From assembly GCA_017302715.1 (NCBI GenBank), contig JAFLCD010000001.1, positions 186,001 to 250,000 of the forward strand: DNA of 64,000 nt. The letters run 5' to 3'. Positions within the stretch are counted from its first letter, which is position 1, and each line of letters starts with the position of its first letter. The DNA is from Deltaproteobacteria bacterium. GTDB lineage: Bacteria; Bdellovibrionota; UBA2394. Positions 8,674 through 43,376 of the stretch are shown here, piece after piece. The notes beneath the pieces are model-generated. The model saw only the letters and a list, made by a program, of their open reading frames with translations, was not told where the DNA came from and did no database searches. A program made the position numbers and the translations under genes.

Positions 8674-10041
8674 TTAAATACTCGACTTATATTTGGCAAG
8701 CTTGTTGTGCAAAGTTTTTAAACTAATATCGAGCATCTTCGCCGCTTTTGTTTTGTTTCCATCCGCATAGCTGATCGTATGAAACAGAAAATGCTTTTCT
8801 ACTTCTTCCATGGTTTGCCCCAAACGAAATTCAACCGTGGGAGCTTTGTGTGCTTTCGAAGTCAGCGCTTCAGGCAAGTCGCCTACATCGATGAATTCGG
8901 AGTTGCAGACGATCACAGATCTTTCAATTACATTTTTAAGTTCGCGCACGTTTCCGGGCCATGTGAATTTTTTTAAAATATTCATTGCCTCGCGAGTCAT
9001 GCCCTTGATGTGGCGATCATTTTTTAAATTAAATTCTTCAATGAAAGTCTGCGCGAGAAGTGGAATATCTTCGCCACGTTCTCGAAGCGAAGGAATCTTA
9101 ATGCTAAAGACATTGAGCCGATAAAAAAGGTCTTCGCGAAAAACACCTTCTTCTACAGCTTCTTCTAAATTTTTGTTTGTTGCGGCGATTACTCGGACGT
9201 CAACTTGAACTTCTTCAGTTCCGCCAATTCTTCTAAAGGTTCCAGTTTCTAAAACTCGCAAAAGTTTAGTCTGTAAGTCGGCAGATACTTCGGCGATTTC
9301 ATCTAAGAAAATAGTTCCACCGTCCGCGACTTCAAAGCAGCCCTTCGTTTGCGAAGTTGCCGAAACAAAAGCACCGACCTCATGTCCAAAAAGTTCATTC
9401 TCTAAAAGAGATTCGGGAATTGCAGCGCAGTTTAAAACAATATAAGGCTTATCATTTCGTTTTGAATTTTGATGAATTGCTTTGGCGACAAGTTCTTTTC
9501 CCGTTCCACTTTCTCCATTGATAAAAACCGAAGCAGTGGTCGGAGCAATAATCTGAATCTGCTTAAAAATATTTTTCATCTTCGGCGTGGAGCCGTTTAG
9601 TTTTCCAAACGTACCGAGCTTTCTTACTTTGTCTTTGAGTTGAGACATCTCAAGATCGATACGAACTCGCTTCGAAATATTTTCGAGCATGATTTTTAAT
9701 CTCACGACGTCGAGGGGCTTCGTCATAAAATCGTAAGCCCCTTTTTTAATCGCTTCGACGGCGGTGTCGATATTCCCGTGAGCAGATAAAATAATGAAGG
9801 TGGTAAATTCAAGAAGTCCCTCTTCTTTAAGAGTTTGAAGAAGGCCCATTCCATCTATTTCGGGCATGACTAAGTCCGATAGAATTACGGTAGGTTGAAA
9901 TTTTTTAACAAACTCAAAACCGGCGCGACCATCGCCGGCCATCGCCACTTCGTAGCCCCAACTTGCGAGCAAATCTTTTAGCCCTTCGCGGGCATTTGGC
10001 TCGTCATCTACAATAAGAACTCGCATTTTTGATGTACTCAC
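8674..10041 (-). CDS. NtrC-family response regulator with altered GAFTGA loop
   Basis: 455 residues in three domains: receiver (phospho-acceptor Asp56 in ILSDLVMP), AAA+ domain (Walker A GESGTGKE at 176-183, Walker B GGTIFLDEI near 241-249) and a C-terminal Fis-type helix-turn-helix (NKTKAAKMLDISLKTLHNKL). The sigma-54 contact loop, normally GAFTGA, reads GAFVSA at 223-228. Its GTG start at 10041 directly follows the kinase stop, so the pair is co-transcribed; an in-frame ATG at 10026 is an alternative start. It probably activates or remodels a target set by the kinase, but sigma-54 activation is doubtful. Confidence 0.9.
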   Translation of the reverse strand: MSTSKMRVLIVDDEPNAREGLKDLLASWGYEVAMAGDGRAGFEFVKKFQPTVILSDLVMPEIDGMGLLQTLKEEGLLEFTTFIILSAHGNIDTAVEAIKKGAYDFMTKPLDVVRLKIMLENISKRVRIDLEMSQLKDKVRKLGTFGKLNGSTPKMKNIFKQIQIIAPTTASVFINGESGTGKELVAKAIHQNSKRNDKPYIVLNCAAIPESLLENELFGHEVGAFVSATSQTKGCFEVADGGTIFLDEIAEVSADLQTKLLRVLETGTFRRIGGTEEVQVDVRVIAATNKNLEEAVEEGVFREDLFYRLNVFSIKIPSLRERGEDIPLLAQTFIEEFNLKNDRHIKGMTREAMNILKKFTWPGNVRELKNVIERSVIVCNSEFIDVGDLPEALTSKAHKAPTVEFRLGQTMEEVEKHFLFHTISYADGNKTKAAKMLDISLKTLHNKLAKYKSSI

Positions 10042-27970: not shown

Positions 27971-28813
27971 TTAGGTGCGCTCAAAACTTTTCCAAGTATT
28001 TTCTAAAAGTGTGCAGATCGTCATGGGGCCAACGCCTCCAGGAACGGGAGTAATGGCAGAGACTTTATCTTTTGCACTTTCAAAATCTACATCTCCGACA
28101 ATTTTTCCGTCAGCTAATCGATTGATGCCGACATCAATAACGACAGCTCCTTTTTTAATTTGATCTGCTTTCACAAAGTGAGGTTTGCCAACAGCTACGA
28201 CTAAAATATCTGCCGATGAAATCATTTCATTAGGATTTTGTGTCTGTGAATGAACTACTGTCACAGTGGCACCAGCGTGGTCGAGCAATAAACTAATCGG
28301 TCTGCCGACAATTCTAGATCTACCGATGACAACCGCACGTTTTCCTTTGATCTCGATTTTATTATCAACGAGTAAATTCATAATGCCGAGTGGAGTACAG
28401 GGCACAAAACCATTTTGTTGAGCGACGAGTCTGCCGAGGTTGATGGGATGAAAGCCATCCACATCTTTTTCAGGAGAGATGGCTTCAATTACAGCTGCTT
28501 CAGAAATATGTTTTGGAAGAGGCAGCTGAGTGAGTATCCCGTGAATTTTCGGATTTTGATTGAGCGACTGAATAATTTTTAGCAATTCACTTTCAGAAAT
28601 TTTTTCGGAGTGGTGAAGCTCTTGTGAATAAAATCCTATTTCAGAGCAAGTCTTCACTTTTTTTCCGACATAAATTTTAGAGGCTGGATCTTCTCCGATT
28701 CGAATCACAGCTAAGCCAGGTTTTTTCCCGGATTTTTTTTCTGCCGCTGAGACTTTCTCTTTTAATTTTTCAAGTCGAGCTTTTGAAGATTTATTTCCGT
28801 CGAGAAGAATCAT
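27971..28813 (-). CDS. folD: FolD bifunctional methylene-THF dehydrogenase/cyclohydrolase
   Basis: 280 residues. Motifs SKIYVGKKVKTCSEIGF (catalytic Lys in the YVGKK segment), GILTQLPLPKHI, PEKDVDGFHPIN, the NADP loop VVIGRSRIVGRPISLLL and the C-terminal PVPGGVGPMTICTLLENT. It interconverts 5,10-methylene-THF and 10-formyl-THF in cytosolic one-carbon metabolism. Its start overlaps the end of the NtrC regulator by 4 bp, making it the last gene of a long - strand run. Confidence 0.95.
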   Translation of the reverse strand: MILLDGNKSSKARLEKLKEKVSAAEKKSGKKPGLAVIRIGEDPASKIYVGKKVKTCSEIGFYSQELHHSEKISESELLKIIQSLNQNPKIHGILTQLPLPKHISEAAVIEAISPEKDVDGFHPINLGRLVAQQNGFVPCTPLGIMNLLVDNKIEIKGKRAVVIGRSRIVGRPISLLLDHAGATVTVVHSQTQNPNEMISSADILVVAVGKPHFVKADQIKKGAVVIDVGINRLADGKIVGDVDFESAKDKVSAITPVPGGVGPMTICTLLENTWKSFERT

Positions 28814-30225
28814 GCGTGATCTTCCTCTGCGTCTACATCTGCAGTAGAAATTCCATCAATTTTATATTCTTGAACTTTATAGATAAGTGCTCGTCGGCTA
28901 ATTCCTAAAAGTTCTGCAGCTTTTGTTTTATTATTTTTTGTAAACACTAAAGCTTTTCGAATCATGCATTCTTCGGTGTACGACTGAACTTGCTCAGTAG
29001 CCTTCTTTAAATCCCATTCATCGACGGGGACTTGGGCGGGTTCGCTGACTGCAGCCGAAGAATTATTAAGTGGTGGAGGCAGAGTCTCTTCGGTCAATGC
29101 TGCGCCTTCTGTCATGACCACCATCTGCTCGATTAAATTTTCGAGCTGTCGAATATTTCCAGGCCATTCAAAAGCCATGAATTTATTCATTACTGCTGGA
29201 TCAATGCTGGTGATATTTCGAGAATATTCTTTTGCGAAACGCTTTAAGAAAGAATGTGCAAGAAGTGGAATATCCTCTCGGCGCTCTCGAAGCGAAGGCG
29301 AATGGAGAGGTACGACATTCAATCGATAAAATAAATCCTGTCTAAATCTTCCTGCTTTAATTTCTTCTTCCAAATTTCTGTTCGTTGCAGCGATCACTCT
29401 CAAATCGAGAGAAATCGATTTTGTATCTCCCACTTTTCGAATCGTGTTTTCTTGCAAAAGTCGCAACAACTTACTTTGAAGTTCGATCGGAAGCTCCCCG
29501 ATTTCATCTAAAAACAGACTGCCCTTATCGGCTTCTTCGCAAAGTCCTTTTTTGATTCTGTCAGCTCCTGTGAAAGCGCCCTTCACATGACCAAAAAGTT
29601 CTGACTCAAGTAAATTGGCGGGGATGGCTCCGCAATCAACGACTACAAAAGGCTTATCTTTGCGCGAGCTATTGTAATGAATAGCTTTGGCGAGAAGTTC
29701 TTTTCCGGTTCCCGATTCTCCCAAAATGAGAATGGTACTTTTTGTGTCAGCGGCTTTTCGAATTTTTTGAAACAAATTTTTAATAGGTGCCGAGTTGCCG
29801 ATGATATTTGAAAAATCATATTTATTCGAAACTTCATTTCGAAGACGTAAATTTTCATCTTTAAGTTGAGTTTCTCGAATGGCTCGTTCGGCGACGAGTT
29901 TGATTTCCTCAGGTTCAAAAGGTTTTTGAATATAATCATAAGCCCCTCGCTTCATGGCTGTCAGAGCTGTTTGAATGGAGCCGTGGGCTGTGATCATTAC
30001 CACAGGGACTTCGGGGCGTATCATTTTTAATTCTGCTAACACATCCAAACCGTCTTTGTCAGGAAGGCCAATATCACAGAGAACCAAATCAAATAATTCA
30101 GATCGAAAATTTTCTAAACCTTTGCTCGCATTTTCAGCAGTAACGACAGCGGTTTTATCGTCGGCAAGGCTCAATTGTAAAAGTTTAAGAAGACTGACTT
30201 CATCGTCGATGATGAGAACTTTCAT
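28810..30225 (-). CDS. NtrC-family sigma-54-dependent response regulator
   Basis: 471 residues from ATG 30225. Receiver with Asp51 (LVLCDIGLP), AAA+ with Walker A GESGTGKE, canonical GAFTGA loop and Walker B GSLFLDEI, and a C-terminal Fis-type HTH (NKTKAAELLGISRRALIYKV). Unlike the regulator at 8.7 kb it has all elements needed to activate sigma-54. It follows a membrane kinase gene by 50 bp, forming a two-component pair, and is coupled to folD. An in-frame upstream extension to 30261 is unlikely because MKVLIIDDE is the typical receiver start. Confidence 0.92.
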   Translation of the reverse strand: MKVLIIDDEVSLLKLLQLSLADDKTAVVTAENASKGLENFRSELFDLVLCDIGLPDKDGLDVLAELKMIRPEVPVVMITAHGSIQTALTAMKRGAYDYIQKPFEPEEIKLVAERAIRETQLKDENLRLRNEVSNKYDFSNIIGNSAPIKNLFQKIRKAADTKSTILILGESGTGKELLAKAIHYNSSRKDKPFVVVDCGAIPANLLESELFGHVKGAFTGADRIKKGLCEEADKGSLFLDEIGELPIELQSKLLRLLQENTIRKVGDTKSISLDLRVIAATNRNLEEEIKAGRFRQDLFYRLNVVPLHSPSLRERREDIPLLAHSFLKRFAKEYSRNITSIDPAVMNKFMAFEWPGNIRQLENLIEQMVVMTEGAALTEETLPPPLNNSSAAVSEPAQVPVDEWDLKKATEQVQSYTEECMIRKALVFTKNNKTKAAELLGISRRALIYKVQEYKIDGISTADVDAEEDHA

Positions 30226-30275
30226 GATTTTTATGCTCTCAATCTGATGATGAAGGGTCAAGAACTAGGCAGAAT

Positions 30276-31622
30276 TTAAGCTCGTTTCAATCGAATCTCG
30301 AAGGTCGTTCCTTTTCCTTCTTCTGATTCAAAATTCAGGCTTCCGCTTTGATTGTGGATGATCTCTTGAGCGACGGAGAGTCCTAGCCCTGTCCCCTCTT
30401 TCTTTGATTTCGTTGTGAAAAAAGGCTCAAATATTCTCGATTGAATTTCTTTGGGAATTCCACTGCCGTAATCTTCGATTTCAACGGCGACTTCATCCTT
30501 TAAATTTTTAACTCGCAGATTCACTTGATTGCCTGCCGCAGATGCATGAATGGCATTGAGTAATAAATTAAGAAGCACTTGTTGAATTTGTTGCGCTGAT
30601 CCTACGACGACTGCGTCGGTATCAGCCTCTACTTTTAAATCAATATGTTGAGTTTTAGCTTCGGCCTTTAAGAGCAAAGCTGCGGATTGAATCACTTCTT
30701 TTAAAGCGTAAGGTTTATTCTCAGTGGGATCATTTCTCGCAAATCTCAACATTTGTTGCAAAATTTGGTTACATCTTTCGCCCTCGCTCTGAATAATTTC
30801 TGCAGCTTCAATTAAATGAGGATCAGAGATTTTTGATTTAATAACTTTTGCATAACCCATCATGGCGGTGAGAGGATTTTTTACTTCGTGAGCGATGCTG
30901 GCGCCCATTTGTCCGATGGTTGCTAGACGAGTGGAGTGCGCGAGTTTCATTCCTGCAATTTTAAGGTTTTTCTCTCGATCTTGAATGACTCCAATCATTT
31001 TTTTGAAAGCTTTCGCGAAGCCACCGATCTCGTCTCTTCTTTGAAGAGGAAGTTCAATGGATTCATAACTACCTTCGGCAACTAACTGTGTTGCTTTAAA
31101 AAACTTTCGAAGAGGTGCGAGTAAGAATCGAGACAGTGCGTAAGTCAAGGCGAGCCCGCCTAAAATAAATGCTGCAGCAATACTCAAAATATTCTTCAGT
31201 AACTTTTGAATAATCGCAGAAAGTGAGGCGTCCGTTGTGTAATCAAATACCCAATAAGTCCTTCCGGCGACGGGAGCAAAGGCGCAGATGTATTTTTCGC
31301 CGCTGATGCCGTGACATTCAGTCACGACGGATCCCGCTGCAGGAATTAAAGGCTTAATAAGTTCACGTGGAAATTCAGATCTAAGTTGAGGGTCTAAAAT
31401 CTCGCCGTCGCTTTTGACGAGCGCAATCGTTTGCGGCTCTCCTTTTTTATTGAACTTCACTTGCGAAGCCGCAAGCTGAGATCGGCTAGAGATCATTTCT
31501 AAAATAGAAGTTTTGGATTCGCGTACAACCAGTTTTCCAAAATAAAAGGAAAGAACTGCGACTTGAATGATAACGAGAAAAGAAAACCCTAGAAAAATTT
31601 TAGTGCTTGTTTTTTTGAACAT
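30276..31622 (-). CDS. Membrane sensor histidine kinase
   Basis: 448 residues from ATG 31622. TM1 near 9-29, a periplasmic sensor region of ~110 residues, TM2 near 145-165, HAMP, HisKA (His245 in AHEVKNP) and HATPase_c (DYGSGIP, GTGLGLSVA). It probably phosphorylates the NtrC regulator encoded next. The start overlaps the 3' end of the FecR-like gene by 23 bp. The periplasmic part has two Cys (ECHG, YICAF) that might form a redox-sensitive pair. Confidence 0.92.
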   Translation of the reverse strand: MFKKTSTKIFLGFSFLVIIQVAVLSFYFGKLVVRESKTSILEMISSRSQLAASQVKFNKKGEPQTIALVKSDGEILDPQLRSEFPRELIKPLIPAAGSVVTECHGISGEKYICAFAPVAGRTYWVFDYTTDASLSAIIQKLLKNILSIAAAFILGGLALTYALSRFLLAPLRKFFKATQLVAEGSYESIELPLQRRDEIGGFAKAFKKMIGVIQDREKNLKIAGMKLAHSTRLATIGQMGASIAHEVKNPLTAMMGYAKVIKSKISDPHLIEAAEIIQSEGERCNQILQQMLRFARNDPTENKPYALKEVIQSAALLLKAEAKTQHIDLKVEADTDAVVVGSAQQIQQVLLNLLLNAIHASAAGNQVNLRVKNLKDEVAVEIEDYGSGIPKEIQSRIFEPFFTTKSKKEGTGLGLSVAQEIIHNQSGSLNFESEEGKGTTFEIRLKRA

Positions 31623-32907
31623 ACAGCCTTCGAACTTCACTTTTGTAGGCGATGCCATCGATCGTCGAGGTCACTTGCCAATAAACTTGTCCCAAATCTA
31701 AATATTGAAGAGTCAATTCTGGTTTTGAAATTTCTTCCGATAATAAAATCGATTTCATTTCTGGATCTGTAGCTACACTAAAATGATAAGTAATTTTTTC
31801 GCCGAGATTTTCCCAAAAGAATGAAATCGTATCTCCACCTTGTGGATCCATCGCCACTTGCGCATTATTTGCAGGTAAGCGTAGCGACAGTGTAGGAGAG
31901 TAGGCAACAGGAGCGCTCACGCTCGTAGATGTAGCCGTCAGTTGCTGCAGCTTTTGAATTTCAATGGGCTTTGCATCTTTAAGACTAGGCTTTAAAATTG
32001 CAGTGCCTTGAGCGACGGCCACTGTTAACTTTCCATCCTTCATTTTTGTTTCGATGCGAGTTTCAGGTTGAGGTGCATCACCCATTTTTGGGCTTACCAT
32101 TTCCAAAGTTCCAGTCGGTGTTTCGATAGAGAGACGTTGAGTTTCTTCGGACGGTGGTATTCTCGCCGAGATCGTTCCATTTTCTAACTTCACTGTTCTT
32201 GTATCTACGCTTGGCTTTTCGCCGATGATCAAAAGTGTATTAGATTTTACAATGACTCTTGAGCCTTCACTATATTGGATGACGGCTTCTGAATCTTCAA
32301 ATGTGCGAACTCCATCTTTCTGATCGAGAGCAAGTTGCACTTTTGCTTTTGACCAAAGCAAATCCTTTGATTTTCTAAACTCAACGTCGTTGAGAAGTCT
32401 TTCAATCTTTGCATCAAACTTTTCTGGAATTGCTACAGGAGTAAGCTTTTTAAATGTTGCTGGTTCAGTATGTATAAATTTTGGAGAGAAGTGAAAAGCG
32501 CCAAAAATGAGACCTGCCAGAATTACAAAAGCAAAAAAAATGCTGATTATTTTTTTTGAAAAGGGAGCCCCTTTTTTAAATGAAGAATTTTTTGCTACTT
32601 CCTTTTTTTGAGATAGACTCTCTTTTTTTTCATTGTTTGGATCATATTCAATATTTTCACTCTCACCAGAGAGGCTTTGAAATCGATGCCCCACTTTTAA
32701 GGTTCTAAAGATTTGATTAAGTTTGAGAACTTCCTCTTGTGGAAAACTTCTTCCGATTACATAAGGTACGGTCGAGAGTGACGCTATGAGATTTTTGTCT
32801 CGAGATGCATAGAGAAGCTCGCATATATCTGAAATTTTTTCTTCAGATGGGTAGCTGAAAATAGTCAGCTGATAGCGACTTTCAGAGGGCATTTTGTTTA
32901 GTTGCAT
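31600..32907 (-). CDS. FecR-domain membrane protein
   Basis: 435 residues. A cytoplasmic N-terminal domain (~115 residues) is followed by TM 119-140. A FecR-like segment (LALDQKDGVRTFEDSEAVIQYSEGSRVIVKSNTLL is its conserved core, ~190-230) and a periplasmic C-terminal domain follow. FecR proteins transmit envelope signals, usually to sigma factors; here the partner genes are a kinase and an NtrC regulator. The start overlaps the lipoprotein gene upstream by 10 bp. Confidence 0.78.
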   Translation of the reverse strand: MQLNKMPSESRYQLTIFSYPSEEKISDICELLYASRDKNLIASLSTVPYVIGRSFPQEEVLKLNQIFRTLKVGHRFQSLSGESENIEYDPNNEKKESLSQKKEVAKNSSFKKGAPFSKKIISIFFAFVILAGLIFGAFHFSPKFIHTEPATFKKLTPVAIPEKFDAKIERLLNDVEFRKSKDLLWSKAKVQLALDQKDGVRTFEDSEAVIQYSEGSRVIVKSNTLLIIGEKPSVDTRTVKLENGTISARIPPSEETQRLSIETPTGTLEMVSPKMGDAPQPETRIETKMKDGKLTVAVAQGTAILKPSLKDAKPIEIQKLQQLTATSTSVSAPVAYSPTLSLRLPANNAQVAMDPQGGDTISFFWENLGEKITYHFSVATDPEMKSILLSEEISKPELTLQYLDLGQVYWQVTSTIDGIAYKSEVRRLYVQKNKH

Positions 32908-37906: not shown

Positions 37907-38557
37907 TCATAATGGCGATTGGCACTCCACGGAAGAGAAATTGAGGCTTCCCGTGAGGCCCTCATCACTAATCTTACAAACTTGAGGTTGCGTTTCAAAG
38001 CTTTCAAACTCGCATTCCATACGTCTTTTATTCTTATGATAAAGAACGGGCTGCTGGCTTTCATTCATCCAAATAAATGCCGCAGTTTCTTCAGTCACTG
38101 TTCCCAAACTAAATGCGATCTCTTTCCACCAATCGTTTGAAAACCATTTTTTAAAGAGAGGTTGCTTCTGAAGAGAGCGAGTTCCAGATTCATCTGTCCA
38201 AGTTGCGAGACGTTTTGAAACTTCGATTTTTGCGAAAGGAGTTAAAATCGGAGTATAAAGAATGAGCTTCATTTCAGAATCTTTTCCTTTGAGCGAAAAA
38301 GTTAAGCTCGCATCCGCTCTCACCGTTTCTTCTGGCGTCTCTAGTTGAATGACCAAGCGAGCTTGGCAAATTTGTGACTGATTTGATTTTTTAAAATCTT
38401 TTGGCCAAGCAATTAAATTTTGACGATGAGCAGAGCAGGCTATCGTTGATAAACTAATTAGAATTAGCGGTATCCAAAAGAGCCATCTTATCTTTGACTC
38501 GATCTTGAACAGCTTTTGTTTCGGCTGTACTTTTCTCTTCAGCTTTTGAGTTTTCAT
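37907..38557 (-). CDS. Lipoprotein, function unknown
   Basis: 216 residues. A long basic N-region precedes the hydrophobic stretch WLFWIPLILISLSTIAC, whose end is a probable lipobox. ATG 38557 overlaps the TPR gene by 104 bp, which is long; a non-ATG start nearer the signal peptide is possible (for example CTG near 38512). The mature domain (~175 residues) is soluble with several Trp residues. A LolB-like fold is imaginable but not supported by motifs. Confidence 0.65.
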   Translation of the reverse strand: MKTQKLKRKVQPKQKLFKIESKIRWLFWIPLILISLSTIACSAHRQNLIAWPKDFKKSNQSQICQARLVIQLETPEETVRADASLTFSLKGKDSEMKLILYTPILTPFAKIEVSKRLATWTDESGTRSLQKQPLFKKWFSNDWWKEIAFSLGTVTEETAAFIWMNESQQPVLYHKNKRRMECEFESFETQPQVCKISDEGLTGSLNFSSVECQSPL

Positions 38558-40235
38558 TTTCAGCCGACATTCTCATGATTCGTTGATAGATCTCAAGCGC
38601 CTGTTCTCGTTTTCCAAGTTTTTGATAGAGATCCGCTAAGTGTTCTAAAATGACGGGTTGTCCAGGGCTCAATTTATTGGCGCGCTCGATTAATTCTGTA
38701 GCCAATTTATATTTGCCCATTCGATAATAGGTCCAGCCTAAAGAATCTTGAATGAATCCATTCTCGGGTGCAATTTGCACAGCTTGTTTTAAATAAGATT
38801 CAGCCTGCTCCAAATTAATATTGTGTTCGGCATAAGTGTAGCCAATGTGATTAAGGGCATGCTCGTTATTTGGATTTGCTTTGAGCACTTGCTTCATTTT
38901 ATCTACGCCAGCTTCAAAATCTCCAGTGCGATCTAAAAAATGTCCTAACATAAAGAGAATTTTTTCATTCTGTTTAAATGTCGCACTACCTTTTGTAAGA
39001 ACTCGAATCGCTTCTGGCAGTTGATCCTGTCGATCATGAAACGCTGCAAGGGCGATCACAAGTTCTGGAGCATCTGGTCTTAGAGAAATTCCCTCTGCCA
39101 AACTTAATGAAGCTAAATCAGCTTTGTTAAGTTTAGATTCAAGAATCAAGCCAATCTGCAATCTTGATTCGATAAAATATTCTGATTTGGCATCTACTTT
39201 TTCGTAATATTTTAATCCGTCTGCGAATCGATTATCTTCTTCGCAAAGTGTTCCTAAATAAAAAAGAATTCTATCTTGAGGAACAGAATCATTATTGAGC
39301 ATTCCCTGAAATATTTTTTGCGATTCTGTGAAGTCCTTTAATTTGTAATAAATTAAAGCGGCTCGCATTTGGCTTTGCGTGTCTTCAGGTCGAATAGTTA
39401 AAAACTGATTCAAATAAACTAAAGCCATCGGATAATTTTCAGAGATTAAAGAAAGATTAATGAGCTTCTGAATAATTTCTTCATCCGCTCCATTTGTGCT
39501 TAAAGCTTGTTGATAGACGGCGATTGCCTGTTGAGCATTTCCTTCTAATTCGAGTTGAAGGCCCAGAGCTTTTGCAGCGGCGCCAAAGCCCGGTCGTAAA
39601 TCGAGAGCTTTTTGAAATGCTTTTTTAGATTCTTTTCGATTTTGAAAAATCGAATGAATCTTACCTAAAAAGTAGAACCCAATTTCGTCGTTAGGCTCTT
39701 TCTTTAAATATGAATTCAGTGTCATTACACTTTCGCTGTATCGACGATGATCTGCCAAAATCGCAACTTTCGTCAGCAAACTTTCGCGACCTTTACTTGT
39801 GTTGTTAGAAGCGAAGTAAAGTTTTGTAGCTTGATCCAAAGCTTTGGTGGCTGTTCTTAAATCTGATTCTTGCGAAGCTACCTTGGCGACTAATAAATGA
39901 TAGTCAGGATTTTTTTTCTCTTGGTTTTGAATAGAGGTTAGAAGACTTTTAGTCTCAGTAATATGACTTAAGCTTAAATGCTCTTCAGCCTGCTTCAATT
40001 TTAAAAGAGAAGACTGAGGATCTAATTGTGCAGCTGTTTTAAAATGTTCGAGCGCAGATTGAGAGTTATTATCGAGGCTCGCAAAACTTCCTAGAATAAA
40101 ATGCAGATAAGCATCTGCACTCGATTCATTGGTTTCTTTGCCGACTGCGATTTGAAAGTGCAGCGGCCAGCAGAAAAAAACACTAAAAAACAAAGATGAA
40201 ACGATATTTTTACTAAAGCTTTTTTTCAAAGACAT
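38454..40235 (-). CDS. Exported TPR-repeat protein
   Basis: 593 residues from ATG 40235, preceded by GGGGGAGGG. A signal peptide (LKKSFSKNIVSSLFFSVFFCW) is followed by about a dozen TPR units (for example DAYLHFILGSFASLDNNSQSA, GYTYAEHNINLEQAESYL, GWTYYRMGKYKLATELIE). It probably scaffolds an envelope complex. It is the first gene of the - strand run through to folD. An in-frame ATG at 40295 lacks a ribosome site. Confidence 0.85.
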   Translation of the reverse strand: MSLKKSFSKNIVSSLFFSVFFCWPLHFQIAVGKETNESSADAYLHFILGSFASLDNNSQSALEHFKTAAQLDPQSSLLKLKQAEEHLSLSHITETKSLLTSIQNQEKKNPDYHLLVAKVASQESDLRTATKALDQATKLYFASNNTSKGRESLLTKVAILADHRRYSESVMTLNSYLKKEPNDEIGFYFLGKIHSIFQNRKESKKAFQKALDLRPGFGAAAKALGLQLELEGNAQQAIAVYQQALSTNGADEEIIQKLINLSLISENYPMALVYLNQFLTIRPEDTQSQMRAALIYYKLKDFTESQKIFQGMLNNDSVPQDRILFYLGTLCEEDNRFADGLKYYEKVDAKSEYFIESRLQIGLILESKLNKADLASLSLAEGISLRPDAPELVIALAAFHDRQDQLPEAIRVLTKGSATFKQNEKILFMLGHFLDRTGDFEAGVDKMKQVLKANPNNEHALNHIGYTYAEHNINLEQAESYLKQAVQIAPENGFIQDSLGWTYYRMGKYKLATELIERANKLSPGQPVILEHLADLYQKLGKREQALEIYQRIMRMSAENENSKAEEKSTAETKAVQDRVKDKMALLDTANSN

Positions 40236-40362
40236 CACCCTCCCCCGAGGATTCAAACACCTTCTAATATTGTAAGGCTGATTATTAAAACCCACAATTC
40301 ATGCAGGTTTGACGGCTTTTAAGCTGAAAGAGCGGGGCATCTAAATCGTGTAGGGGGGACTA

Positions 40363-40407
40363 GAAAAAAAGAGGCCGCTGTGAGCTAAGGGAGAAACTCA
40401 CAACGGC
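40363..40407 (-). terminator. Rho-independent terminator
   Basis: On the - strand: GCCGTTGTGAG, 12-nt loop, CTCACAGCGGC (one mismatch in 11), then CTCTTTTTTT. It would end the candidate small RNA and any transcript running on from the S41 peptidase gene. Confidence 0.8.
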
Positions 40408-40463
40408 ACCTAGGGAGTAATAAGAGTTAGGGGTATTCTTCCTAAGATTTCTCTCAGGAATGT
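40363..40463 (-). ncRNA. Candidate sigma-54-dependent small RNA (~100 nt)
   Basis: A sigma-54-type promoter (40473-40490) predicts a start near 40463. About 60 nt later comes a terminator stem (40374-40407) followed by a run of U. No ORF with a ribosome site lies between. It occupies the gap between the S41 peptidase gene and the TPR gene. Expression is not shown; readthrough into the TPR gene is also possible. Confidence 0.5.
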
Positions 40464-40472
40464 TTAGAGATA

Positions 40473-40490
40473 TTGCAAACTTGATGCCAA
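40473..40490 (-). promoter_or_regulatory. Sigma-54-type promoter
   Basis: On the - strand TTGGCATCAAGTTTGCAA: TGGCA and TTGC elements with exactly 10 nt between the invariant GG and GC. It matches the -24/-12 consensus except at two less conserved positions. Tandem AACTGCT-type repeats lie about 15-40 bp upstream (40503-40529) and could bind an activator. Confidence 0.6.
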
Positions 40491-40594: not shown

Positions 40595-42046
40595 CTATTT
40601 GGCTCGGATTATTTTGCTATCGCGAAAAAGAATTTTTGCAGCTGATAAAACGACGTCGGAGTTCCGTGTGGAAGCGCTCTCTTCCTCCGCTCGTTTTTGC
40701 AAATCTTTATCAGATGAAAATTCTACCTGAAAAGAAACCTTCGCTTGGTTCATTGTTTCTTTTACATTTTTTCCCGTCTCAATAGTTTTTAAGCCAAATT
40801 TCGAAAGATCTTTTTCTTTCAAAATAGCAGAGGAATCTACGCTTTGAGATGTCTGCTTAAATTTCTCCCATTTTATATCCTTAATTTCGTAGTCTGGCTC
40901 GACTCCTAAAAGCTGGAGCGAAACTCCTAGAGGTCCGTAAAAAAATTCTGAAGTAATGGCGAGGCTTCCGCCTAAATGTTTTTCAGGTTCAAAGTTTTCA
41001 AAATTGAAAATCAGGCTTTGCCCAACTAATTTGCCAAAACTAGTTTCGCCTACAATTTTAGCTCGACCTGTTTCTTGCAAAACGAGACTGAGCATTTCGC
41101 TTGCAGATGCACTAAAATTATTAATGAGAACAATCAAAGGGTTCTCAGAAAAATCATGATCAAATTTTGGGTTAATTATTAAAGGAAGCTCTTCGAATCT
41201 GGATTTCATTTTTCCAATTTCACCCTCTGAAAAAAAGAAATTCACGATCATCAATAGTTCATCAAGATTTCCACCCATATTAGATCGAAGGTCTAAAATA
41301 ATTTTAATGTCCTTTGCTTGAAGCGACTGATCGGCGGCCTTTAGTTCACTCACTTTTTCTAAAATATTTTCTCGAAGGTTTTTAGCAGAGTCTTTAGAAA
41401 ATTTTTCTAAGGTTACATGAATGGTGTCTGTGCTGATGCCTTCAATATGCACATTGGAATTTTTGTCTGGCCACTTTCGATCCATGAAAAAAACGCGAGG
41501 CCCCTTAGTTGATAAACGAAGGGCGACATATTTAGCTGGGGGTTCATACCGACTATTCGCATCTAAGCTGATCGCAAAATGACTTAAGAAACTCCAAAAT
41601 AATTCTGGCTGCGCATAGATAAGATTTGAATTCAATTGTTCGACATAAAAATTTCCAATTTGAATTAAATCTGAGCAATCCGTGATGTGATGAAAGTTTG
41701 CAAGAGTTCCAGATTCCAGAGGAGTTAAAGTTTTCTTAAGCCTAACGTAATCATTTTGAAGTGAAGTGGGATTGCCTTTGATTTGAACAATAGAGATGTA
41801 AACGTGATCTAAAGTTTGTAAAAGTGCTTCCGTATAAAGCTTTTCTTTTTGTGTTTCATTCTGAGTGAGATGAACTTGAAGAGCATTATTGAAACCCTTA
41901 TTGAGTTCATCACAATAACTTTTGCCTGAAATTCCATAGACCTTCTCAAGTGGGGTCGAAGTCGGTTGGCTACCACATCCTGCGAGCAAAAAACTAAAGA
42001 GGACTAAAATCGGCGATAGGCGAATCAAGATGGGGCTTTTTAGCAT
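40595..42046 (-). CDS. S41-family (C-terminal processing) peptidase, lipoprotein
   Basis: 483 residues. Lipobox LLAGC at about residue 24. The S41 core shows IILDLRSNMGGNLDEL, PLIVLINNFSASASEML (nucleophile Ser in SASASE) and GRAKIVGETSFGKLVGQS with the general-base Lys. A PDZ domain is not obvious. The C-terminal ~100 residues are charged. It likely trims or degrades envelope proteins. It is separated from the downstream TPR gene by the candidate small RNA. Confidence 0.85.
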   Translation of the reverse strand: MLKSPILIRLSPILVLFSFLLAGCGSQPTSTPLEKVYGISGKSYCDELNKGFNNALQVHLTQNETQKEKLYTEALLQTLDHVYISIVQIKGNPTSLQNDYVRLKKTLTPLESGTLANFHHITDCSDLIQIGNFYVEQLNSNLIYAQPELFWSFLSHFAISLDANSRYEPPAKYVALRLSTKGPRVFFMDRKWPDKNSNVHIEGISTDTIHVTLEKFSKDSAKNLRENILEKVSELKAADQSLQAKDIKIILDLRSNMGGNLDELLMIVNFFFSEGEIGKMKSRFEELPLIINPKFDHDFSENPLIVLINNFSASASEMLSLVLQETGRAKIVGETSFGKLVGQSLIFNFENFEPEKHLGGSLAITSEFFYGPLGVSLQLLGVEPDYEIKDIKWEKFKQTSQSVDSSAILKEKDLSKFGLKTIETGKNVKETMNQAKVSFQVEFSSDKDLQKRAEEESASTRNSDVVLSAAKILFRDSKIIRAK

Positions 42047-42074: not shown

Positions 42075-43376
42075 TTAACGCAGTCTAGAGGCTAAATTGC
42101 GGGCTTGAGAATTGCGAGGGTTAAGCTTTGTGGCTCGCTTAACATGCTGGATAGCTTCTGATCGGCGATTGAGATCGAGCAAAGTAAGAGCTAAAAAATA
42201 GTGAACTTGATCGGTTTCTTGGAGTGCCAAGGAGCGCTGAAGTGCACCCAAAGCAGCCTGGAATTTTTTCATTTTATAAAGTGCGTAGCCATAGTTCATC
42301 CAAACTTCAGAATTGTTTGGAGATAAATTTAGCGCCGCTTCAAATTCTTTTGCAGCTTTCCGCGGACTAGAATTAAGCATCATGATGCCAGCAGACAAAT
42401 GTACTTCGGCATCACTTTCAGATTTTCCATTTCGACGTTTCGTTGTTTTCTTGACGGTTTTCGAATTCGTTTTGGTATGAGGCGCAACTTTAACTTGAGG
42501 GGTGGGAGCTAATGTGGGCGCGCCAGTAGAAAGTGGATCAGCTTGAGCCACTGGAGTGGGCTCGCGATGAGGTGAAATTTTCTCTGCCTCAATTTTTTGC
42601 GGTTCATCGAGTGAGGGAATCGGCGCTTCAGGAGGAGGAGTTAAAAGTTTAGTGAGATAAGGATCCTGTGGCTCAATTTTTACTCGCAAAGCTTCGGCAA
42701 TAAAATATCCGATGAATCCACAAAAAGTGAGTGCTCCACAGAGTGCGATCATTTGCACTTTTGGTGAAATATTTGGTGTCGCGCGCTCTACAACTTTTTT
42801 TGTTTTCGGCGAAACGGAGGCTAAGGATTCCTTTTGTAAGCTTGGATCGATATAACTTTCGCGGAAAATTTCGCCTTCATCTGCCATCTCGGCCGGATGC
42901 CTTGTCTCCATGGTCTCATCATTCTGAAGAGCTTCGTCCATCGACATCAGCTCATCCATCGTAGACTTTTCTTTTTTCTTTGCGTTCTCGACCAACTCAA
43001 GACGCATCGAAACAGCATTCACATTTTTTTGAGGAATAGGTCTTATATCCGCGTCTTCTTTTGCCAACTGGTCGCGCGAAGCCTTTAAATTTGAAAGATA
43101 AGAATTCATATCGTCGTCAGAAATATTGGATTCGTATTCTTCGAGCTCTTTGTTTGCGATACGAATTTGACTTTCATCATCTCTCAGTTTTTCAGGCGCC
43201 TCAGAAACTTCCGCAACTTCTTCACTTAATTTTTCCACTGAGACGGCTTCTTCGTTTTTGATTTCTCGACCCGGTGTGGGACGAAACAAAGCTTTGCACT
43301 GACATTTTAAAAGTCGATGAGACTGCTCTTTCTTAATCTCAAATATTTTTCCGCACTCGGGGCATTTTACTTTCAT
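42075..43376 (-). CDS. Zinc-ribbon, single-TM protein with C-terminal TPRs
   Basis: 433 residues. N-terminal MJ0042-type zinc finger (KCPECGKIFEI...LLKCQC), an acidic linker, TM near 205-228, a Pro-rich region, a basic patch and C-terminal TPRs (AEVHLSAGIMMLNSSPRKAAKEFE, VWMNYGYALYKMKKFQAAL). ATG 43376 overlaps the HD-GYP stop, so it is translationally coupled to it. Similar proteins are common in delta-type bacteria; function unknown. Confidence 0.75.
   Translation of the reverse strand: MKVKCPECGKIFEIKKEQSHRLLKCQCKALFRPTPGREIKNEEAVSVEKLSEEVAEVSEAPEKLRDDESQIRIANKELEEYESNISDDDMNSYLSNLKASRDQLAKEDADIRPIPQKNVNAVSMRLELVENAKKKEKSTMDELMSMDEALQNDETMETRHPAEMADEGEIFRESYIDPSLQKESLASVSPKTKKVVERATPNISPKVQMIALCGALTFCGFIGYFIAEALRVKIEPQDPYLTKLLTPPPEAPIPSLDEPQKIEAEKISPHREPTPVAQADPLSTGAPTLAPTPQVKVAPHTKTNSKTVKKTTKRRNGKSESDAEVHLSAGIMMLNSSPRKAAKEFEAALNLSPNNSEVWMNYGYALYKMKKFQAALGALQRSLALQETDQVHYFLALTLLDLNRRSEAIQHVKRATKLNPRNSQARNLASRLR

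Follow-up and report, generated by a model that had tools for sequence, protein, structure and literature searches.

Few small RNAs (sRNAs) driven by sigma-54 have been described; most come from Gammaproteobacteria and myxobacteria, and Hfq is a partner of many. Most members of the class that includes Qrr, GlmY/GlmZ, CrcZ, and NrsZ act through Hfq or RapZ. In enterobacteria, the Hfq-dependent sRNAs RybB and MicA are driven by sigma-E and constitute the repressive arm of an envelope regulon. Qrr1-5, GlmY/GlmZ, CrcZ, and NrsZ are encoded by stand-alone genes under the control of NtrC-type regulators and sigma-54 (PMC7602753, PMC3162934), the arrangement that we also predict for the locus analyzed here, and its control likewise resembles that of Pxr from Myxococcus xanthus and other myxobacteria (PMC5568312). 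A different comparison is offered by LhrC of Listeria (RF00616), which pairs with the Shine-Dalgarno (SD) regions of surface-protein mRNAs, an interaction shown to be independent of Hfq, and is induced by an envelope-stress two-component system (PMC8079631).

The locus in question lies in a 64-kb window (the whole stretch of DNA that was analyzed) of a Bdellovibrionota genome (Table 1) and, insofar as a case can be made from sequence, is close to certain to be a sigma-54-driven sRNA gene. Such a gene had been proposed in an earlier note, which located it between the S41 peptidase and TPR genes and described a -24/-12 element with GG and GC 10 nt apart; both the location and the element stand. 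On the minus strand, GG and GC are spaced exactly 10 nt apart in TTGGCATCAAGTTTGCAAT, and the predicted +1, inferred from promoter geometry, falls at 40463, 12 nt past the C of the -12 element. The stem of the terminator, which had been expected about 60 nt past the start, begins 56 nt past the predicted +1, and is followed on its 3' side by CUC and then seven U (U tail at 40373-40364). The same note held that no ORF lies in between, that the window encodes NtrC-type activators, and that the RNA has no recognized family. The predicted RNA indeed contains no credible ORF, two NtrC-type activators are encoded in the window (one listed in Table 1, the other at 8674-10041), and no Rfam sRNA family was matched at the gathering threshold in the window, nor was any credible match found in the sRNA region at E <=5.

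Table 1. Features of the sRNA locus and its surroundings (positions within the window)
Feature	Position	Strand	Basis
Predicted small RNA, about 100 nt	40364..40463	(-)	Promoter geometry and terminator; predicted +1 to end of U tail
Sigma-54 -24/-12 promoter TGGCATCAAGTTTGCA	40474..40489	(-)	Exact consensus; conserved as TGGCAYNNNNYTTGC in 5/5 genomes
5' hairpin UUCCUGAGA-GAAA-UCUUAGGAA	40439..40460	(-)	Folds and leader alignment
Near-invariant single-stranded linker AAUACCCCUAACUCUUAUUACUCCCUAGGU	40408..40437	(-)	Five-genus alignment
Intrinsic terminator hairpin, 13 bp, 8-nt loop UCUCCCUU	40374..40407	(-)	Stem paired in 5/5 genomes
TPR-repeat gene with signal peptide, downstream neighbor	38454..40238	(-)	Pfam TPR; syntenic in all five
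S41 peptidase gene, upstream of the RNA	40595..42046	(-)	Pfam PF03572
Zinc-ribbon/TPR gene, conserved upstream neighbor	42075..43376	(-)	Pfam; synteny
Histidine kinase, linked candidate sensor	30276..31658	(-)	Pfam HisKA/HATPase; syntenic in three relatives
NtrC/AtoC-type response regulator, candidate sRNA activator	28810..30261	(-)	Pfam PF00158, PF00072, PF02954

A DNA search of 39 relatives recovered the element in four other genomes of the family, a little-known group related to predatory bacteria, each representing another genus, and in all five genomes it is present in a single copy. The 66-nt core, AUACCCCUA(UU)ACUCUUAUUACUCCCUAGGUGCCGUUGUGAGUUNCUCCCUUARCUCACARCGGCC, is nearly invariant, with 91-100% identity over the five genera, and the linker and the loop are conserved as strongly as the stem. 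The -24/-12 element is retained in all five genomes, whereas the DNA between the -12 and the core has diverged, and the distance from the predicted start to ACCCC ranges from 4 to 30 nt. The -24/-12 element is accordingly conserved next to the terminator in five genera, as the test set by the earlier note required; together with the presence of RpoN (identified by its DNA-binding domain) in all five genomes and a rearrangement in one of them that excludes a cis-acting leader there (see below), this conservation supports the reading of the locus as a sigma-54-driven sRNA gene. Each of these genomes also encodes many NtrC-type activators. When 369 genomes of the phylum were scanned with a covariance model built from the core, exactly those five scored 93-105 bits; the next matches (<28 bits) fall within coding regions or coincide with unrelated terminators and have no -24/-12 element. 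The named MAG records that carry the core are Bacteriovoracaceae UBA2394 and RYN_335, Deltaproteobacteria CG11_45_16, and Bradymonadales DLM2.Bin98, of which UBA2394 is placed in Bdellovibrionota by NCBI. No match to the core was found in plasmids, and an 18-mer match in Acaryochloris, located near ribosomal-protein genes and lacking the remainder of the RNA, was rejected.

The predicted 100-nt RNA folds with a free energy of -35.4 kcal/mol (z = -5.67), a stability reached by none of 200 shuffled sequences. The 5' hairpin occurs at the same place, with a differing sequence, in G000, G001, and G002, and is absent from G003 and G004. Three C-rich, anti-SD seeds reside in the parts predicted to be unpaired, namely, ACCCCUA (40434-40428, minus strand) and CUCCCUAGG (40417-40409, minus strand) in the linker, and the terminator loop UCUCCCUU. 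The earlier note mentions neither these seeds nor, among the features considered below, the candidate target and the linked two-component system.

The layout of a hairpin, a single-stranded stretch, and a terminator is shared with LhrC, and so are the UCCC motifs that recur in the single-stranded part and in the terminator loop and are invariant in the new sRNA (PMC8079631). However, LhrC is a multicopy sRNA of Firmicutes under LisRK control, whereas the new sRNA is single-copy and predicted to be sigma-54-dependent, and its LhrC-like pairing with SD regions is likewise a prediction; homology of the two was rejected given a covariance score of 17.7 bits, at chance level, against the RF00616 cutoff of 110. 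Compared by description rather than by sequence, Pxr has three stem-loops and is encoded directly downstream of nla19, whereas the new sRNA consists of the linker and the terminator with an optional 5' hairpin (one or two predicted hairpins) and its linked regulator is 9-11 kb away. Membership in the Qrr, GlmY/GlmZ, CrcZ, or other Rfam sRNA families was rejected because no Rfam model was matched. Furthermore, the Qrr/GlmY/CrcZ/NrsZ class is mostly linked to Hfq or RapZ, whereas neither Hfq (PF17209) nor ProQ (PF04352) was detected in any of the five genomes by searches that were positive in control genomes, and assignment to an Hfq- or ProQ-dependent class was rejected on this ground. RybB and MicA offer a conceptual parallel, in that an envelope regulon under a sigma factor includes a noncoding arm that represses, although they use another sigma factor and have no known sequence relation to the new sRNA, whose own link to targets is a prediction. 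The sRNA belongs to a known class, and the combination of its features is unusual.

The best-supported mechanism, which we consider probable, is that the sRNA represses the translation of envelope proteins by anti-SD pairing. The stand-alone gene would be transcribed by the sigma-54 RNA polymerase, most likely upon activation by an NtrC-type response regulator, with the linked kinase/regulator pair as the first candidate, and the RNA would terminate at its own terminator. The unpaired ACCCCUA and UUACUCCCUAGG in the linker, along with UCUCCCUU in the terminator loop, could then pair with G-rich SD regions and keep ribosomes from entering a set of mRNAs for the cell envelope, the candidates including the mRNA of a conserved single-TM protein of 63-70 aa that is itself located behind a sigma-54 promoter. 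Within a sigma-54 program for the cell exterior, the sRNA would thus represent the noncoding, repressive arm, operating without Hfq or ProQ. More specifically, and more tentatively, it is possible that, in this family of Bdellovibrionota, a chaperone-free anti-SD sRNA represses sigma-54-driven envelope mRNAs, those of the small membrane protein and of several lipoproteins. If so, this would be a convergent mix of LhrC-like pairing with sigma-54 and two-component control, paralleling the sigma-E sRNAs of enterobacteria; it would demonstrate RNA control of the cell surface without the usual chaperones, in uncultivated Bdellovibrionota, and would add a post-transcriptional layer to the role of sigma-54 as a controller of the bacterial exterior.

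The target tests covered stretches amounting to ~20% of the window genome and all sigma-54 sites; the gene starts were picked by a simple script, so that some of the control ribosome-binding sites are expected to be wrong. Across the five genomes, long (17-nt) complementary sites showed no enrichment relative to control patterns. One long-site match falls within the 5'UTR of the gene for a 63-aa single-TM protein that has its own sigma-54 promoter. This small membrane protein (63-70 aa; L097, L098, L099, L100, and L101), for which no Pfam family was found, is preceded by a sigma-54 promoter and a G-rich ribosome-binding site in all five genomes, where the duplexes of the sRNA with its 5'UTR have predicted energies of -24.9, -23.5, -22.5, -18.8, and -16.1 kcal/mol. 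In the four genomes that were not used in picking this target, the combined p value for pairing is 1.6e-4 against the all-gene background (length-matched upstream regions of 428 genes) and 9e-4 against the confident-SD background, with pairing sites that differ among the genomes and are weak in G003 and G004. This mRNA appears to be the best candidate target.

Beyond this gene, exact matches of 9-10 nt to the RNA occur at the ribosome-binding sites of the lipoprotein or secreted-protein genes L132, L148, and L116, and exact matches of at least 9 nt were found in 3 of the 31 sigma-54 UTRs compared to 3 of 421 other UTRs (p = 0.005). Complementarity to the RNA is higher at the ribosome-binding sites of genes for membrane and secreted proteins than at those of other genes (p = 8e-5), also after the removal of SD strength (p = 0.004), and none of 60 shuffled seeds gave an effect as strong. 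When the sigma-54 genes as a whole were compared with controls that have confident SD sites, they were not clearly more complementary (p of about 0.09); plain anti-SD complementarity accounts for part of the target signal.

An alternative on the unlikely side is a genuine sigma-54 sRNA that acts in another way, that is, as a protein sponge, through activating pairing, or on targets outside the envelope; it deserves consideration because the near-invariance spans the entire core, beyond the C-rich seeds, as would be expected also for protein binding. CsrA, encoded in four of the five genomes, could have been the sponged protein, but no GGA motif is present in the conserved core, and the CsrA sponge was rejected for this reason; titration of Hfq in the manner of CrcZ fails in that there is no detectable Hfq to titrate. 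Against this entire group of explanations stands the complementarity to targets, which is above that of the controls.

That the unit instead acts in cis, as a leader that starts at the sigma-54 promoter and carries an attenuator or terminator controlling the downstream TPR gene, is very unlikely, even though it is co-oriented with the TPR gene in four of the five genomes (lying about 130 nt ahead of it in the window) and, among 428 ribosome-binding sites, that of the TPR gene ranks 15th for pairing with the RNA. In G002, the unit is unchanged but inverted with respect to both flanking TPR genes, so that the sRNA is an independent unit rather than a TPR-gene leader; with this inversion, the attenuator is largely refuted and was rejected. 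In addition, a plain terminator does not require the linker and the loop to be conserved to the same extent as the stem.

The surrounding gene cluster has a conserved order: o406, an HD-domain gene, the zinc-ribbon/TPR gene, the sRNA, the TPR gene, genes for LolB-like and MshEN-domain proteins, two Opp-type ATPases, TrpS, two further ORFs (one with a FecR domain), the histidine kinase, the NtrC/AtoC-type regulator, and FolD. This synteny was traced by tblastn in G001, G003, and G004, the G002 contig being short. The S41 peptidase gene separates the sRNA from the zinc-ribbon/TPR gene in the window genome only, with no match in the corresponding loci of the four relatives; judging from this comparison, it is an insertion specific to the window genome. 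When 34 genomes from other families were searched, no similarly strong match to the MshEN-domain protein of the cluster was found, so the sRNA and the cluster seem to share one distribution.

A third possibility, that a chance promoter-like match happens to sit beside an ordinary conserved terminator, with transcription coming from elsewhere, for example, by upstream read-through, is extremely unlikely. Short motifs do recur at random, and with two mismatches allowed, matches to the sigma-54 pattern in the window are no more numerous than in shuffled sequences. However, TGGCATCAAGTTTGCA is the sole exact match to TGGCAYN5TTGCW within the window, and the whole window genome contains 57 exact matches compared to none for the reversed control pattern, so most of these can be taken to be real promoters. 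The sRNA site is the only one of the 57 with a strong non-coding terminator <=200 nt downstream. Moreover, the element is correctly placed in all five genomes amid diverging adjacent DNA, and only 4-7 nt separate the predicted start from the conserved core in G003 and G004. A short peptide gene is hardly conceivable: tiny GTG frames are present, but no ORF, and in particular no ATG frame, is common to the five genomes, no ribosome-binding site is seen, and the conservation is concentrated in the unpaired C-rich stretches and the stem instead of following a coding pattern.

If the locus is indeed a sigma-54-driven sRNA gene, the linked NtrC/AtoC-type regulator is a plausible, if tentative, candidate for its activator. 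The regulator is syntenic and 57-73% identical in three relatives, and the kinase/regulator pair is found 9-11 kb from the sRNA wherever the contig is long enough (four genomes). A motif search upstream of the sRNA promoter in the five genomes detected no significant shared enhancer motif, with results not above those for shuffled sequences. In the window genome (L105-L159), we observed the palindrome TGnGACATnnATGTCnCA about 65-130 nt upstream of many of the sigma-54 promoters that serve secreted-protein genes; matches at 10 or more of its 12 positions accompany 27% of the sigma-54 promoters and 0.75% of the background windows. It is likely to be the binding site of one dominant activator. 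Apart from a distant match at -299 in G002, the DNA preceding the sRNA promoter lacks this palindrome in all five genomes, which makes it probable that the sRNA responds to an activator other than that of the secreted-protein genes.

The plausible genes downstream of the 57 sigma-54 sites nearly all encode signal-peptide proteins or lipoproteins, and the picture is similar in G002 and G004. Such an envelope-heavy regulon fits the published view of sigma-54 as a controller of the bacterial exterior (PMC3162934). Some of these sigma-54 genes (loci L105-L159 and L180-L239) are apparently paralogous and share an N-terminal C-x2-IL motif. Many sigma-54 promoters end 12-14 nt before the ATG of secreted-protein genes, in the window genome (L109, L127, L142, L143, L149, L152, L156, and L157) as well as in G002 (L203, L207, L209, L222, L225, L232, and L238). 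With this spacing, the mRNAs for these secreted proteins would have no leader or almost none, and leaderless sigma-54 transcripts seem unusual.
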